The notes under the pieces: generated by a model
Databases searched by the model: none
What the model saw: only the letters and a program-made list of their open reading frames with translations
What the model was told of the DNA's origin: nothing
In this document: piece by piece, positions 18,793 through 25,590 of the stretch
Layout of the letters: each line of letters starts with the position of its first letter
How positions within the stretch are numbered: the stretch's first letter is position 1
Assembly: GCF_000373365.1 (NCBI RefSeq)
Contig: NZ_KB891115.1
Location: 15,243 to 55,505 of the forward strand
Source: Parafrankia discariae
Lineage (GTDB): Bacteria > Actinomycetota > Actinomycetes > Frankiales > Frankiaceae
Length of the DNA stretch: 40,263 nt
Direction of reading: 5' to 3'
Position numbers and translations under genes: made by a program

Positions 18793-19104
18793 TCACTTCT
18801 CGGGCGTGGCGAGAATCTTGAACAGCATGTTGTCCGCGTCGGTGAGCGTCTGCAGGTCGACTCGGCGCAGGCACTCCCCCAGGCCGGCCTTGGCCACGAA
18901 CGTGACCAGACCCATCACAGCCCACTGCCCCTCGCCGAGATCGACGCAGAATCCCTCGGCGGTGGCGTGCTCCACGACCATGGCGACCAGCACGGTGGGC
19001 TCACCCACGATCTCGTTGTAGATCGTGGAGCTGATGACCAGCACCGCCTGTGGTGCCGAGCCGGTGGCCACGGTCCAGATCTCACCGCGGCGCGGCGATC
19101 TCAC
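18793..19104 (-). CDS. PemK/MazF-like toxin of a type II toxin-antitoxin pair
   Basis: A 103-aa protein beginning with the MazF-type strand RRGEIWTVATG, then AVLVISSTIYNEIV and VLVAMVVEH, as in MazF/PemK endoribonucleases, followed by a strand-rich core and a C-terminal helix. Members cleave mRNA at short sequences. The usual conserved proline-rich loop after the first strand is shortened here, so activity is uncertain. GTG at 19104 overlaps the antitoxin stop (GTGA), a typical coupled arrangement. The frame remains open upstream to 19230, but that part overlaps the antitoxin and is shadow. Confidence 0.72.
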   Translation of the reverse strand: MRSPRRGEIWTVATGSAPQAVLVISSTIYNEIVGEPTVLVAMVVEHATAEGFCVDLGEGQWAVMGLVTFVAKAGLGECLRRVDLQTLTDADNMLFKILATPEK

Positions 19105-19367
19105 TCGGCGGTACCCGCGAGGTTGGGGAGCCCCGCCGCCCCGAGAGACCGCTGATTGGCCGCGCCGAAGGAGAGAGCCGCGCGGGTCACCGCCGGGTTG
19201 GCCTGCATCCAGGCCCCGTGCGCGGCGCAACGTCGGCGCATGTCCTCCGCGTCGAGCAGGCCCTCCACCCAGGCGTTCATCGACGTGTGCTCAGCCTCGG
19301 CGTACCGCTTGACCGCCTCGTAGGCCTCGTCCGAGAGCCGGAGTGTGATCGTGCGCGTCATTCCCAT
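19101..19367 (-). CDS. Ribbon-helix-helix antitoxin
   Basis: An 88-aa protein. The first 45 residues are a ribbon-helix-helix DNA-binding fold (TRTITLRLSDEAYEAVKRYA, then HTSMNAWVEGLL). The remaining tail (WMQANPAVTRAALSFGA onward) would be the part that wraps the toxin. Order antitoxin-toxin with a 4-bp overlap supports pairing with the MazF-like gene, and such antitoxins normally autorepress. ATG at 19367 or 19361 (MTRT) are both possible. No clear operator repeat was seen upstream. Confidence 0.75.
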   Translation of the reverse strand: MGMTRTITLRLSDEAYEAVKRYAEAEHTSMNAWVEGLLDAEDMRRRCAAHGAWMQANPAVTRAALSFGAANQRSLGAAGLPNLAGTAE

Positions 19368-19802: not shown

Positions 19803-21005
19803 CTATGAATCTGACGCCAGAGCCTCAAGGGACCGCAGCTGCGCGGCGGTGCCGGAGGCGGCGGCGTAGTCGAGCAGTTCGTCGAAGGTGGGGACCAGCA
19901 CCTCCAGCAGGTTCGCCACGGAGGCGACCGAGTCGTCGAACTCCCCCCGGCTGATTCCGTACCGGCGGGAGATCGACAGGGCCCGTTGACGCACCGCCGC
20001 CGCCCGAGCCCGTTCGTCGTCGCACCACAGCTGCAGAAAACGGGTGTTCCTCACCTGGAAGGACCCGAGCCGATGCAGGGGCTGGCGGGGTGCCGGGCCG
20101 AACGCGTGGGCCGGGAGGGTCGCCCGCCAGATCCCGTTCGGCAGGTCGGTCAGCCGCGCCTGGCCCAGGCCCTGCGCGCGCAGCCATTCCACCCAGGTCT
20201 GGCGCGCGTCGGCGCCGCGCTCGTTCGCAAGAGCGTGCACCACCTGCGGCGCGTACCCACACAGCTCCTCGAGGAACCGGTCGCGATCCTGCGCGGCCTG
20301 GGTGAAGGCCAGCACCCTGGCCCCTTCGGCCAGCACGAGATGGGCCGGCAGCCAGGCGGCGACGGCGTTCACCGGATGCAGGTTCCGCAGCCTGCCGGGC
20401 ACGTTGAACCGTTGCCGGTCCGGCCGTGATCCCAGCGCCCGCACCGCGTCGAACTCGAACGGCCGAAGGGACGTCAACGGTCGGAACCAGTCACGTCCGT
20501 CTCCCGTGGTCCGTTCCCCGTCCAGCACGACGCGCACCGCGCCGTCGTAGTGCGCCCGGGGGAAGGGACTGTGGGTGAAGGCGTCGAACATCAGAAGCTG
20601 GCGGCTTTCCTTCAGGACGTAGCGCACGCCGTCCCGGACGGAGGCAGCCCCCAGATCCGTCGGTCGCAGCACCTCCCGGTCCGGGCCGTCCCGATGCAGG
20701 TGGCCGATGTGGACGAGATGCTCGATCCCGCGGGCCACGAGCGATCCGGACAGTCCGAAAAAGCGGGCGAGCTCGGCCTCCGTGCTCAGCCGGCCCTCGA
20801 CGATCCCCCGCAGCAGGTAGTGGTCGACGACGTCGAAGGGCTGGCTGTCCTCGAACGTCGCCTGGGCCTCCACCTGCCACAGCGGCCAGCGCACCGAGAA
20901 GATCCGCAGCGGGCGGATCCCCGGCATCGCCATGACCAGCTCAAGGGCCCGATAGTCGGGAAACACCAGCCAGTCGCCGGCCCCGCCGGCCGCGGGGCGG
21001 GTCAC
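19803..21005 (-). CDS. Unrecognised 400-aa protein of the helicase-nuclease operon
   Basis: I do not recognise this family. Residues about 60-110 (VVDHYLLRGIVEGRLSTEAE, LARFFGLSGSLVARGIEHLV) look like a winged helix, so DNA binding is possible. The remainder is mixed, with FEFDAVRALGSRPDRQRF and a Trp-rich segment ARQTWVEWLRAQGLGQ; no catalytic motif or membrane helix is evident. The GTG start at 21005 overlaps the helicase stop (GTGA), and it is the third gene of a coupled minus-strand operon with the kinase/nuclease and helicase genes. A sensor or DNA-loading role for the module is inference from context. Confidence 0.75.
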   Translation of the reverse strand: MTRPAAGGAGDWLVFPDYRALELVMAMPGIRPLRIFSVRWPLWQVEAQATFEDSQPFDVVDHYLLRGIVEGRLSTEAELARFFGLSGSLVARGIEHLVHIGHLHRDGPDREVLRPTDLGAASVRDGVRYVLKESRQLLMFDAFTHSPFPRAHYDGAVRVVLDGERTTGDGRDWFRPLTSLRPFEFDAVRALGSRPDRQRFNVPGRLRNLHPVNAVAAWLPAHLVLAEGARVLAFTQAAQDRDRFLEELCGYAPQVVHALANERGADARQTWVEWLRAQGLGQARLTDLPNGIWRATLPAHAFGPAPRQPLHRLGSFQVRNTRFLQLWCDDERARAAAVRQRALSISRRYGISRGEFDDSVASVANLLEVLVPTFDELLDYAAASGTAAQLRSLEALASDS

Positions 21006-24000
21006 CGTGTGCTCCCGGCGGCACCGTGCAGCCACGTCTCGATCTCCCGGGAGCCGCGCAGGTCACCCACGGTCGACAGCGTGGCCCGCAGCTCCCCGAC
21101 GAGGTCACGGAAGCCGTCGTCCCGCGATCGCCCGAGCGTGTCCAGATCGCCGACGAGGACGAGCTGCTGGCGCGTACGGGTCATCGCGACGTTGAGGCGG
21201 CGCAGCTCGCTGAGGAATCCGACCGTCCCGTCGCGGTTGCTGCGGGTGAATCCGTAGACGATCAGATCACGCTCGTTGCCCTGGAACGCGTCCACGGTGC
21301 CGACATTGTCCTCGACCGCACCGGGGCCGCCCAGCCGCCGGATGAGGGTCCGCCGCAGGAGCTGGACCTGCTCCCGGTAGGGGACGATCACCGCCCAGTC
21401 CCGGTGATGGCCGGCGTAGCGGGCGAGCAGAGCCGCGATCAGATCCGCCTCCAGCCGGTTGCTGATGCCCCCGTTCGCGCCGGCGCGTGTCTCGGACCGC
21501 TGCGGGGGCGGCCGGTCGGAGGTGTCGATGAACGCCAGTGGGCTCGTGAACAGCGGGTCGGGTCCAGTGCCGGGATGGTCCGTGGCGAGCACGCCGCCGT
21601 AGAAGGCCCGCGAGATGAACGTCGCGACCGTCGCCGGCATGCGGCGCTGGGTCGTCAGCGTCACGCCGTGCTCCGCCCCGATCCGCTCGAAGAGCCGCTC
21701 GAACTCGCTGCGCCCGACGATGTCCTGGGTCTCCGCGACCGCCGCGGCGGACAGGTCCGTCCCCGGCACGAGCCCCTGCGCCCACTGGGCGACATCGTTG
21801 TCCAGGTAGGGCGGCAGCTGCTTGTGATCTCCGACGAGCACCGCCCGCCGGGCCCGGACGAGAGGGACCAACAGGTCGGGCAGGGCGATCTGCCCCGCCT
21901 CGTCGACGATGGCGAAGTCGAAATCCAGCCCGCTGAGCAGCTTCTTCGTCGAGACTCCGATGCAGGTCGCGGCGATGACGTCGGCGTAGCCGACCAGTTC
22001 GTGCTTGAGCTCCTCGTCCGCGGTGGGAATCCGGTCACGCCAGTCGTCCAGCAGGATCGCGCGGGTGCGGGCGAGCTCGACCGCGTCGAGCAGGATCCGC
22101 TCGCGCTGTTCCCACCCGGCGACGCCGTCGGCCTCGCCCCCGGCGGCGCTGCCGGTCGCGCCGTCGGGCAGGACCGGGCCGCAGCCGGCCAACTCCAGTT
22201 GGGCGCGCAGCGGCTCCGCGGTCCGCATGGCCTGGGTGAGCGCCCGTTCACGGCGTCCCCACGCGTACTCCCGCTCAGCCAACAGCCGGCCGCCGGTGCT
22301 GTCCCGGGTGACGAGCACCATGACCCGCTCCAGCATGCCGTCGTGCTCCGCCCGGGCCGCCGCGAGCTCGCGCTCCGCGGCGTCGACCCGGACGTCGGCA
22401 GCGGCCAACGCGCGCCGGCGCCGGTCGACACCGCGACGGTGAAACGCCGCCCACCAGCCAGCGACCCGCCGACCGGCAGACTTCTCATACCGGCGCCGGG
22501 CGCGGCCCTGCCGGTCCCGCTGCCGTGCCGCCGCCGCCTCGAACCGGTCAGCCTGGGCCTGAGCCTGGGCGATCTCCGGTTCGAGCGGGGCCCGCAGCCG
22601 CCGGGTGACCTCGTCCAGCTCGGCGTCACGGCTGTGGACGTCCCCGTCGGCCTGCCGTGCCTCGACGAGGTGCGCGCGCAGCAGCGCCAGCGGGCCCCGG
22701 CGTCGTCTTCGGAGGCTCTGGTGCCGGCGCTGGTGAACGGCGCCAGCGCCGACCCGATCGGTTCGGTGTACCGCAGGATGTCGTCTTTCAGTGCCTCGAC
22801 CTGGACCTCGGCGGTGAGTTCGCGAGCCGGGCCGGTGAGCGCCTCCGGGTTGCCGACCCGCACGCAGCGCAGCTGGCCGGCCAGGCCCCTGAGGACGTTG
22901 TCGACGGCCCGGTTGCTCTGCGAGGTGACCAGGACACGGCGCGGACCACCCGTGCCGCCTCGGGCGGCCGCGGCCTCGGCGATGGCCATCTCGGTGATGG
23001 TCCAGGTCTTCCCGGTGCCCGGCGGGCCCAGCACCAGCAGCAGGTCCGGTTCGCCCCGCGCGCGCTGGTACGCGTCGAGCTGGCCGCCGTCCAGTGGGCG
23101 GCTCGGCAGCGCCGACCGGTCCGGCGGGGGCGACCGCAGGACGCGGTGCTCCGCCAGCGTCGCCAGCAGGCGGGGATTGGCGGCCTCGCCGTCCCGCAGG
23201 ACGGCCACCGCCCCCAGCTGCGCCCGGTAGACGACGTCGCTCGGGAGCACCTTGAGTGTCCCCTGGGCCGGGATGCGGGCGAAGTCCGGGACGCCGTCGA
23301 ACCGGACCGTCACGTCGAGGTTCTCGGCGCGAAGGATCACCCCGCGCAGGTCCCGGTCGTCGTTGATCTGGATCTGCGTACCCTCGGCGAGCTGGCACCT
23401 GTCGACCAGCCGGAACTCGTAGACACCGCGGGCGGAGTACCGCTGTTCCCGGGTCGCCCGCCGGGCCCGGTAGAGAATCCGGGTGGCGGCGAGCCGCTCC
23501 CGTTCGAGGTCCCTGGTCCGCAGGATGATCCGCTCGACCGTGTCGAGGTAGTCCTGGTGCCGGTCGGGCATCCGGCCGGCCGGCTGCGCCGACGCACGTA
23601 GCGCCGCCCAGGCCTCGGTCAGCGCACCGAGGTGGTTTCTGCCGCCCGCCGGCATGTTTCTGACCTGTGGAAAGAGGGTCCACCGGGGACAGCGGACGCG
23701 CAGGAAACCCTGGGCGAGGCTTCGGTGGTCCTGGAAGCTCCACCGGCCCACGTGCACCAGGATGTAGCCGTCGTCGCGGCCGGAGGGGCGCAGCAGCGCG
23801 ATGTGGGTGTCGGTGTACACCCGCAGCGTCACCGAGCCCTGCTTCCCGTTACCCGGCCCGCTGCTCGTCTCCAGCCGGGCCGGGACACCCGAACCGGCCA
23901 TCCGACCGAGCTGGTGAACGAAGCCTTCCGGGTCGAGGTCGTCGTCGCCCCGGACGCGGGCGCTGGCCATCTTCTCCACCATCCGCGCGCTCGGCGCCAC

Positions 24001-24039
24001 CGCGATCCCGCTCGGCAGCGTGACGTCGGCGATCGCCAT
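21002..24039 (-). pseudogene. Upf1/DNA2-family superfamily 1 helicase, interrupted by one frameshift
   Basis: Two overlapping frames together give a single protein of about 1012 aa with DNA2/NAM7/Upf1 (COG1112-like) architecture: an N-terminal region of 330 residues, Walker A GPPGTGKT at 338-345, a long Arg/Ala-rich coiled-coil insertion (about 450-600), Walker B-type VDEAGQ near 713, VLVGDHKQLPP, TLTTQRRMP, VGTVDAFQGNERD and LNVAMTRTRQQLVLVGD. The frame changes near 22690-22720, most simply by loss of one base in the GGGCCCC run at 22692-22698; restoring it makes the length a multiple of three. A real inactivation, a sequencing error, or recoding are all possible. ATG at 24039 overlaps the upstream stop by one base (TGATG). 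Both halves look intact. Confidence 0.82.
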
Positions 24040-25499
24040 CAACGCCCGGCCCGCGAGAGGTGGTCGGTACCGGCCCGCAGCGCCGGGAGGAGCAGGCCCG
24101 GCCGGGACGGCCGCCGGTCCGGATCGGGATCGAGGGCGGTGCGCAGCGCGTCGTCCAGCTCAGCGGGGAGGTCGAGCCCGAACGCTCGCAGCGGCGCCGC
24201 ACCCCCGAGGGCCGGCGGCCGTCCGGTCAGGCAGTGGTAGGTCATGGCGGCGAGCCGGTGGATGTCGGTGCGGAACCCGACCTCGGGGCGGTGGAACCCG
24301 AGACGCTCCTGCTCCGGCGCGCGGTACTCGGCGGGCCCTTCACCGGGCTGGCGAGGAACGGCGGCCAGGCCGACGTCCCGCAGCACGGGCGCGCGCCCCG
24401 GGCCGGGGAGCACCACCCCGTCCGGTGTGAGGGCCCGGTGGCTGTGCCCGGTCTCGTGCAGCCTGGTCAGGACGTCGGCGACTCCCGTGGCAACGGCGAG
24501 GAGGGCGGCGGCGGTCACGCGGTCCAGCGGGCGGGCCCGGGCCGGATGCACCGGGCCGAACACCTCCCGCCACGTCCGGCCTGCCGGCCGGGCCGAGACG
24601 ACGGCGGCCTCGGTCGGGCCGACCCGGCCCTCGACCAGCCGGGGCAGGCCGTCGCGGCCGCCGATCCGGCCGAGGAGACGCCGCTGGGTGTCGATCGCCG
24701 CCGCGTGTGCCTCCGCCGCCGGATCGGGCCGTCGGATAAGTACCTGACGAAACCGGGCCGGGCCGGACGGCGCCGACATGACCATGGCCGCGCCCGTGCG
24801 CAGCACCCAGGCGTCACCGCCCCGCCACTCCTGCGGATCGCCGTGCAGCAGGCACCGGCAGCCGGCGATCCGGACTGTCTCGCCGGCACGGGGGCGGCGG
24901 TCGATCGAGTGCGCAGGCGCCGTCGCGCCCGCTCCGGTATCCAGGGACGGCACGGTGATCCCAGCATTCGGGCCGGGGGACGGCGATCGCGGCCCGCCGG
25001 GCGGCGGGTAGTACGCCGTGAGCACCGAGGCCGCCGGCGGCCTCGCGAGCAGGCTCCGAAGTCTGGTCTCGTCCCAGATGTCAATCTCTGTGGATGTCTC
25101 GGTCTGCCGGGCCCGTCGCCAGCCATCCCACCAGAGTGTGGTGGGATGATCCATGGAGCTGGGAACGCACAGTATCCACTCGTCGATCCGATAGCCGTGC
25201 GTGCGGGCATTCTTCTGCGCGGAAGCAAAAGACTCTCTGATCTGCCCGCGGTGAGCGTGCGCGACCTGCGGCATGAAGTACTTCGACTGCCAGACGACGA
25301 TCCGGTCGTCAAGCCGGCCGTGAAAGACATCGATGCCGCCGTCGCCGGGATTGGCGCTCACCTGCCGGGCGCCGGGATGGAAGGCATCCACCAGCTGGGC
25401 GATCATCTGCTCGAAGTCCGCCCGGGCACCCGCGGCGCTGCCGGTGTTCACCTCGTGCGAACGGAAGTTGACCATCGGGTTCTCGCGCGATCCTGACAC
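24039..25499 (-). CDS. PD-(D/E)XK nuclease domain fused to a degenerate protein kinase domain
   Basis: A 486-aa protein. The first 160 residues look like an Mrr-type restriction nuclease: helix with FEQMIAQLVDAF, then D53-GG-I-D57 (GDGGIDVF) and the D-(x)n-Q-x-K pair Q71-S-K73 (VVWQSKYF). Residues about 200-480 resemble a Ser/Thr kinase: HSHRALTPDGVVL at 352-364 replaces HRDLKPxN, LRDVGLAA replaces DFG, EYRAPEQ keeps APE, and TDIHRLAAMTYHCLTGRPP matches subdomain IX. The catalytic Asp is absent, so it is probably a pseudokinase. GTG at 25499 has GAGGAGG upstream; the stop overlaps the helicase ATG. First gene of the three-gene operon; an anti-phage role is inferred. Confidence 0.8.
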   Translation of the reverse strand: MSGSRENPMVNFRSHEVNTGSAAGARADFEQMIAQLVDAFHPGARQVSANPGDGGIDVFHGRLDDRIVVWQSKYFMPQVAHAHRGQIRESFASAQKNARTHGYRIDEWILCVPSSMDHPTTLWWDGWRRARQTETSTEIDIWDETRLRSLLARPPAASVLTAYYPPPGGPRSPSPGPNAGITVPSLDTGAGATAPAHSIDRRPRAGETVRIAGCRCLLHGDPQEWRGGDAWVLRTGAAMVMSAPSGPARFRQVLIRRPDPAAEAHAAAIDTQRRLLGRIGGRDGLPRLVEGRVGPTEAAVVSARPAGRTWREVFGPVHPARARPLDRVTAAALLAVATGVADVLTRLHETGHSHRALTPDGVVLPGPGRAPVLRDVGLAAVPRQPGEGPAEYRAPEQERLGFHRPEVGFRTDIHRLAAMTYHCLTGRPPALGGAAPLRAFGLDLPAELDDALRTALDPDPDRRPSRPGLLLPALRAGTDHLSRAGR

Positions 25500-25590
25500 G
25501 GCGAACCGTTCCTCCTCGGGCCAGGGAGTCGGATACCGCAGGAAATCGTAAACCTAACCGAACGACGGCGCTGTCAGCCGTGGCCGGAGT

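Follow-up and report, generated by a model that had tools for sequence, protein, structure and literature searches.

What kind of system is encoded by three overlapping genes in the genome of Parafrankia discariae, and does it protect its host against phages? The genes lie on the minus strand between positions 19803 and 25499 of a 40,263-nucleotide stretch (hereafter, the window; 71% GC) of contig NZ_KB891115.1, which belongs to a 7.9-Mb draft assembly of 194 contigs (GCF_000373365.1). A preliminary description of this DNA, made from the letters of the sequence, had proposed a Mokosh-related antiphage operon consisting of a nuclease fused to a degenerate kinase, a DNA2/Upf1-type helicase, and a third protein without assignment. 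Comparison with related loci points to an abortive-infection immune system, modular in design and carried by Actinomycetota, in which a constant sensor core carries a replaceable effector, an explanation that we consider probable.

A conserved three-gene operon

Gene 1 (25499 to 24039), as delimited from open reading frames (ORFs), PADLOC searches, and a predicted structure searched with Foldseek, encodes an effector-pseudokinase fusion of 486 amino acids. Its GTG start codon is preceded by a stretch that by eye resembles a ribosome-binding site, GAGGAGGA. Gene 2 extends from approximately 24039 to 21002, and gene 3 (21005 to 19803) encodes 400 amino acids. Genes 1 and 2 overlap by 1 bp within the sequence TGATG at 24041 to 24037, and genes 2 and 3 overlap by 4 bp (GTGA, 21005 to 21002); the coordinates and both overlaps agree with those originally reported.

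In 66 of 67 deduplicated actinobacterial loci, the helicase gene lay immediately upstream of gene 3; in 61, the helicase was itself preceded by a kinase-domain gene. Homologs of the three genes thus stay together across genomes, and the separation that the preliminary description had named as refuting its proposal was not observed. The operon is real, and since its arrangement is conserved in 61 of the 67 loci, that arrangement is beyond chance. Left out of the count were L223 to L237, the fragments L030, L051, and L271, the weak locus L031 (G124, no hidden Markov model [HMM] match), and weak, partial, or second matches in G882, G794 (a second piece), G986, G1066, G1039 (a second match), G1309, G1285, G1178, G1228, G1506, G1371, G1313, G1393, G1558, G1570, and G1326.

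Unrelated domains at the N terminus of gene 1

Unrelated toxic domains occupy the same slot of this conserved core, namely, the N-terminal end of the gene 1 product. In the window, residues 7 to 166 (25002 to 25481, minus strand) match LmuA at 5.7e−47 in PADLOC, which bears out the restriction-type nuclease that had been proposed, and four residues of this LmuA/Mrr-type PD-(D/E)XK domain (E30, D57, Q71, and K73) are invariant in all 12 nuclease-bearing rows of alignment A4. In the system as a whole, the nuclease is one among several effector domains that replace one another, a point that the preliminary description had missed. The nuclease classes comprise the LmuA/Mrr type (20 loci with the window included; the locus tally gives 18 and the tree 19 plus the window, a difference probably caused by a distance limit in which the two counts differed), a Cap4-like class (6 loci), and an HNH class (1 locus). 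The remaining classes carry a short segment (10 loci), SEFIR (9 loci), a nucleoside phosphorylase (5 loci), TIR (4 loci), a hydrophobic segment (4 loci), or DUF4145 (3 loci), the last of which is placed in the HEPN superfamily in a passage of PMC3710099.

These labels differ in their basis; 29 gene 1 relatives were scanned with Pfam and 10 with PADLOC. Pfam matches above cutoff underlie the TIR (4/4; TIR_2 at 6.5e−31, 2e−12, 2.7e−11, and 2.4e−8), DUF4145 (3/3; 1.2e−9), and HNH (1/1; HNH_2, 1.1e−6) classes, and three of the five phosphorylases were labeled by Pfam (PNP_UDP_1 at 5.3e−32, 2.7e−26, and 5.7e−34). For SEFIR, Pfam matched three of nine (2.8e−14 for one and below cutoff for another), and PADLOC identified bSEFIR at 3.4e−21 among the relatives; the rest were assigned by blastp cluster, with L255 assigned by eye in a broken copy, and L259, which bears the same label, gave no SEFIR match when scanned by Pfam. 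The Cap4-like label derives from matches below cutoff for three of six (Cap4_nuclease, at best 2.9e−5) and from similarity for the others. The hydrophobic class was assigned by hydropathy, and L262 and L263 were placed in the short-segment class by length alone.

When mapped onto a tree of the helicase (62 rows, built by a quick method without bootstraps and with L264 on a long branch), the nine N-terminal classes require 11 changes, where the minimum is 8. Shuffled labels required a mean of 38.5 changes and came as low as 11 in none of 200 shuffles. The starred branches force at least two changes each for TIR and for the LmuA-type class; TIR in Pseudofrankia sits within the nuclease-class clade, and TIR occurs again in a separate clade. 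From these counts, the N-terminal classes are heritable yet exchanged. Domains as unlike as these share mainly the capacity to shut a cell down, which makes a sensor core joined to an exchangeable killing domain the most plausible interpretation of the series.

The kinase domain of gene 1

The remainder of the gene 1 product adopts a predicted protein-kinase fold (approximately residues 206 to 483; 24051 to 24884, minus strand). Residues 267 to 482 match the kinase part of MkoA at 6e−13 in PADLOC, and the predicted structure (mean predicted local distance difference test score [pLDDT] of 78; predicted template modeling score of 0.58) resembles PknI, PknE, and other protein kinases in Foldseek (1e−11 to 5e−11). 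The fusion of a PD-(D/E)XK nuclease to a kinase-like domain was thereby supported on both sides. In all 16 aligned gene 1 proteins, the HRD aspartate and the β3 lysine (its position judged by eye) have been lost and the DFG aspartate has been kept. Across a wider set of 58, the HRD aspartate is absent from 53 and the DFG aspartate is present in every protein, so that the description of the kinase as degenerate was correct for the great part of the family.

The helicase gene and its frame break

Gene 2 (21002 to 24039, minus strand) encodes an SF1 helicase of the Upf1/DNA2 type (COG1112), with AAA_11 and AAA_12 identified by Pfam and TIGR00376 matching below its cutoff. In PADLOC, its N-terminal and C-terminal halves match MkoA at 4.9e−22 and 3.6e−83, respectively. 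The gene had been read as a single protein of 1,012 amino acids, which did not hold. It is spread over two overlapping ORFs of 793 and 913 codons, with the third-position GC content switching from one frame to the other at approximately 22,700, and by eye the Walker A motif lies in the upstream frame and the DEAG Walker B motif in the downstream frame. Relative to the copy in Parafrankia soli, the nearest named helicase (85% identity over 553 columns), the alignment contains only one gap of a length indivisible by three, a single base close to 22,699. Intact homologs are single ORFs of approximately 970 to 1,060 amino acids. The break may be a genuine mutation or an error in the draft sequence, and in the former case the window copy may be inactive. 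In a separate case, the helicase gene of the Dactylosporangium roseum copy contains an ORF that by eye resembles a transposase gene and runs in the opposite direction (L048, 6341 to 8044).

The winged-helix protein encoded by gene 3

Gene 3 (19803 to 21005, minus strand) serves as the signature gene of the system. Its product gave no Pfam match, and its residues 38 to 226 match MkoB at 3.4e−9 in PADLOC (profile positions 8 to 204 of 610). MkoB positions of approximately 25 to 95 also match many small proteins at about 1e−4 to 1e−5; a bare match to the MkoB N terminus is therefore weak evidence, and kinship was judged instead by profile alignment. Aligned with actinobacterial MkoB, gene 3 gave a probability of 97.4% and an E value of 1.6e−11 over 119 columns around the winged helix. 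In the predicted model (mean pLDDT, 88), residues 54 to 127 (20625 to 20846, minus strand) form a MarR-type winged helix (VIA-align Z score, 12.1; root mean square deviation, 1.9 over 72 residues), with MarR-type regulators among the best rows. The Foldseek and VIA rows cover approximately residues 53 to 127 and barely test the remainder of the protein, where no match was obtained. The third protein, at 400 amino acids as described, can thus be partly assigned, a point missed in the preliminary description: it shares with MkoB the winged-helix part but not the PLD. That gene 3 might hide a PLD nuclease was considered and rejected: no HxKx4D motif was seen by eye, and no alignment with MkoB extended outside the winged-helix part.

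Distribution and neighborhood of the cassette

Gene 3 was found in 13 of 35 genomes of the family to which the window belongs and in 15 of 393 of its class. Profile searches, with partial and weak matches included, identified it in 34 of 250 genomes in the family of a Dactylosporangium, 25 of 200 in that of Actinocrispum, and 11 of 200 in that of a Streptosporangium; in the family of G182, 14 of 297 genomes gave matches, of which only six were near full length. A pattern-based scan of 84,980 species returned 17 loci, all titled as actinobacteria.

A conserved cassette at 19818 to 25553 is common to relatives with different flanks (blastn against L018 to L024 and L030; alignments longer than 150 bases). 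Homology to L018 to L022, which have different surroundings, starts at 19,818 to 19,822 and ends at 25,538 to 25,553. P. soli (L024) shares flanking stretches beyond the cassette as well, and G276 (L030) retains a 190-base remnant of gene 3. Judging from these sharp edges and this remnant, the operon seems to be transferred, and also lost, as one block. Searches of plasmids, phages, and viral contigs gave no gene 3 homolog within the sensitivity that they had, and the case for mobility is accordingly made by the homology edges.

Known defense genes accompany some copies. DISARM genes encoding DrmD and DrmMI directly adjoin the system in L021, and type I-E Cas3 and Cas8e lie a few kilobases from it in L025 (both by PADLOC); by eye, L018 and L022 carry a helicase ORF very similar to that beside the system in L021. 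In the window itself, a PemK/MazF-like toxin (9.4e−6) and a ribbon-helix-helix antitoxin-like ORF (below cutoff) lie at 18793 to 19367, a pair also present in P. soli. This pair had been taken to indicate a defense island, an argument that is not supported, because the stretch shared with the non-syntenic relatives L018 to L022 ends near 19,818 and 25,553; as they lie outside the conserved cassette, the toxin-antitoxin genes were rejected as part of the system.

Fifteen loci from a search of the G663 family (L223 to L237) have a reduced helicase and the N-terminal half of gene 3 only, with no kinase. In L224, the one member of this set that was read, the Walker A motif looks degenerate. These loci are possibly a decayed or repurposed remnant of the system.

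Relationship to Mokosh

The kinship with Mokosh that had been suggested was upheld by the matches of the helicase and of the kinase part to MkoA and of gene 3 to MkoB. As in Mokosh type I, an MkoA-family helicase of the COG1112/Upf1 type is combined with a kinase-fold domain and the winged-helix part of MkoB. Should the operon be an ordinary type I subtype that works in the same way, with the kinase-helicase MkoA divided between two genes and a truncated MkoB, these PADLOC matches would be expected, as would the profile alignment of gene 3 with MkoB; for Mokosh type I, a table in PMC10952713 names both PLD and a nuclease-related domain (NERD). Furthermore, L115 to L117 have near full-length MkoA matches in fusions without the active-kinase pattern and in different operons, and a degenerate kinase is therefore not unique to the system in the window. 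However, four actinobacterial Mokosh loci (L082, L118, L119, and L120) have the kinase fused to the helicase, an intact HRD motif, and an MkoB with the PLD motif HxKx4D. Their MkoA match begins at profile position 5 to 7 with at most approximately 90 open-frame residues to spare, which leaves no room for an effector domain. Here, in contrast, kinase and helicase are on separate genes (in the window and in relatives with mapped gene ends), the kinase active site is degenerate in 53 of 58 proteins, gene 3 shows no PLD motif by eye, and the kinase protein bears an additional, exchangeable N-terminal effector. We therefore regard an ordinary Mokosh subtype as unlikely; given that two defining features of type I are lacking, the kinase-helicase fusion and the PLD, the system is best called Mokosh-related with interchangeable effectors rather than Mokosh as defined.

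Several other arrangements of similar helicases were seen. The operon in L115 (3066 to 15409) combines its MkoA-like fusion with an LCAT-like hydrolase, a caspase-like protein (by eye) that also has an NTPase and WD40 repeats, and a 1,103-amino-acid protein whose start by eye resembles a winged helix; the operons of L115 to L117 are possibly another expansion of the same core. Larger operons in L083 (3111 to 14385; G123) and L084 (G073) encode, besides an MkoA-like helicase, a vWA protein, a protein that looks kinase-like by eye, an approximately 500-amino-acid winged-helix protein (Pfam wHTH-PRTase_assc), and an AAA protein (AAA_5, below cutoff). In L122 (5720 to 8791) and L124 (5406 to 8963), the PLD-like motif HxKx4D occurs within an Upf1-type helicase itself, and by eye these two resemble the fused design of Mokosh type II.

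Comparison with other systems and remaining alternatives

Lamassu, too, is described as a common core with exchangeable effectors. The effector of the window resembles that of Lamassu over residues 7 to 166, where LmuA is matched; unlike in Lamassu, the core consists of an Upf1 helicase and a winged-helix protein, and genes 2 and 3 have no SMC (LmuB-type) match among those listed by Pfam or PADLOC and match helicase and MkoB profiles instead.

Hachiman consists of HamA (DUF1837) and HamB, an SF2 helicase. Published abstracts on Hachiman describe a nuclease that is liberated by a sensor helicase, and an effector nuclease placed under a sensor helicase would be common to both systems. They differ in that the helicase here is of the SF1 Upf1 type (AAA_11/AAA_12) and in that those abstracts name two proteins for Hachiman; neither HamA nor HamB was among the PADLOC matches listed (25 of 26 families for gene 1). 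By analogy with Hachiman, the operon might act like a restriction system, its nuclease, controlled by the helicase, cutting phage DNA directly instead of killing the cell. The Mrr-type nuclease of the window, with its invariant motif residues, beside an SF1 helicase would suit such a design. Nevertheless, the same core elsewhere bears TIR, SEFIR, or phosphorylase domains, which would not cut DNA fed to them, and direct cutting is to us an improbable account, more so than a Mokosh subtype. Least probable is a housekeeping operon for DNA or RNA repair: IGHMBP2/Upf1-type helicases do also serve repair and RNA turnover, and TIGR00376 was matched below cutoff, but this reading was rejected on the patchy presence of the genes (in 13 of the 35 genomes of the family of the window, for instance, and in few of those of the G182 family) and the exchange of effectors along the helicase tree, and several copies are broken.

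Catalytically disrupted kinases with a suggested nonenzymatic role have been described in actinobacterial conflict systems (Kaur et al. 2020, PMC7159879). Those systems are similar in their inactive kinases, their actinobacterial hosts, and their diverse effector domains and differ in being centered on vWA/MoxR and GTPase proteins; the term Upf1 does not occur in the text searched. Among the matches listed in searches of the open-access literature, no title or abstract opening described the present operon, most subscription journals lying outside those searches.

Proposed mode of action

Under the preferred reading, a constant sensor core with a replaceable effector, the Upf1-type helicase and the winged-helix protein, as its nucleic-acid-binding partner, would survey nucleic acid and recognize a phage-specific or damaged structure. 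A change in the state of the helicase would then pass to the degenerate kinase domain, acting as a noncatalytic relay or scaffold, and this relay would switch on the N-terminal effector. In the window, the LmuA/Mrr-type nuclease would cut DNA and halt the infection, probably sacrificing the cell. Among relatives, the slot is filled by TIR or SEFIR, which by analogy would degrade NAD, by a nucleoside phosphorylase, a Cap4-like or HNH nuclease, a HEPN-type DUF4145, a hydrophobic stretch resembling a membrane segment, or the short motif described below.

The idea of a defense function is well supported by genomics, through effector swapping, the sharp edges of the cassette, and the adjacent DISARM and CRISPR genes, and it builds on gene content and order, domain identities, N-terminal exchange, and loss of kinase residues that are directly observed. 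Several points weigh against it. The defensive role is proposed here on genomic grounds, and defense neighbors were present at only two of the seven loci checked, where four of nine neighbor proteins matched PADLOC. Five of the 58 kinase domains retain the HRD aspartate, making catalysis possible in some, and 6 of the 67 loci have no recognized kinase: L266 is cut by a contig end, L257 also lacks the helicase, and L212, L219, L253, and L258 have the helicase only. Gene 1 of the window matched no Pfam family above cutoff, Pfam misses the nuclease in several relatives too, and LmuA was scored by PADLOC on the window copy only, the other LmuA-type members having been assigned by a purpose-built HMM. 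The failure to find gene 3 on plasmids or in phages belongs with these points.

A short motif in place of the effector

The ten short-segment relatives are too short at the N terminus to hold an enzyme. Of these, eight were aligned and share a motif of approximately 20 to 30 residues, Gly/Val-rich around Gln-Ala-Gly. In the corresponding eight genomes, a profile of this motif gave 7 to 32 matches per genome (E values up to 1, own copy included). Most of 22 further motif loci were read by eye as encoding NB-ARC/NACHT-like proteins that bear the motif toward the N terminus; of six motif proteins scanned by Pfam, L288 and L289 carry NB-ARC, L282 carries NACHT at its cutoff, and L280 gave no match. 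L294 and L295 are stand-alone SEFIR proteins (1.2e−13 and 5.5e−16) with the motif at the very C terminus. A strict-pattern search for a motif partner within the fetched loci matched only four of the kinase genes themselves.

In bacterial amyloid signaling, as outlined in PMC8086366, similar motifs are found at the N terminus of a receptor and the C terminus of an effector encoded as separate proteins. The arrangement seen here is alike in this respect; it differs in that the receptor would be a pseudokinase-helicase rather than an NB-ARC/NACHT protein. By analogy, the short motif could recruit a SEFIR effector encoded elsewhere. We tentatively suggest, as a possibility less likely to be right than wrong, that the system is a helicase-centered counterpart of the NLRs, with an Upf1 helicase and a winged-helix protein as sensor, a pseudokinase as relay, and an exchangeable effector. 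In one lineage an amyloid-type motif would replace the fused effector and share SEFIR executioners with NB-ARC/STAND receptors in the same cell, and another lineage would fuse SEFIR directly.

The short-motif class thus suggests cross talk between a helicase sensor and the NLR repertoire of the cell. More broadly, this three-gene set of soil bacteria looks like an antiviral alarm with one sensing core and varied cell-damaging domains, and it would extend the rule of a constant sensor with a replaceable killer to an Upf1-type helicase and a pseudokinase. With one core and at least six recognizable effector families, it offers a natural series through which Mokosh-type helicase sensing and signal relay by a pseudokinase in immunity become directly testable.

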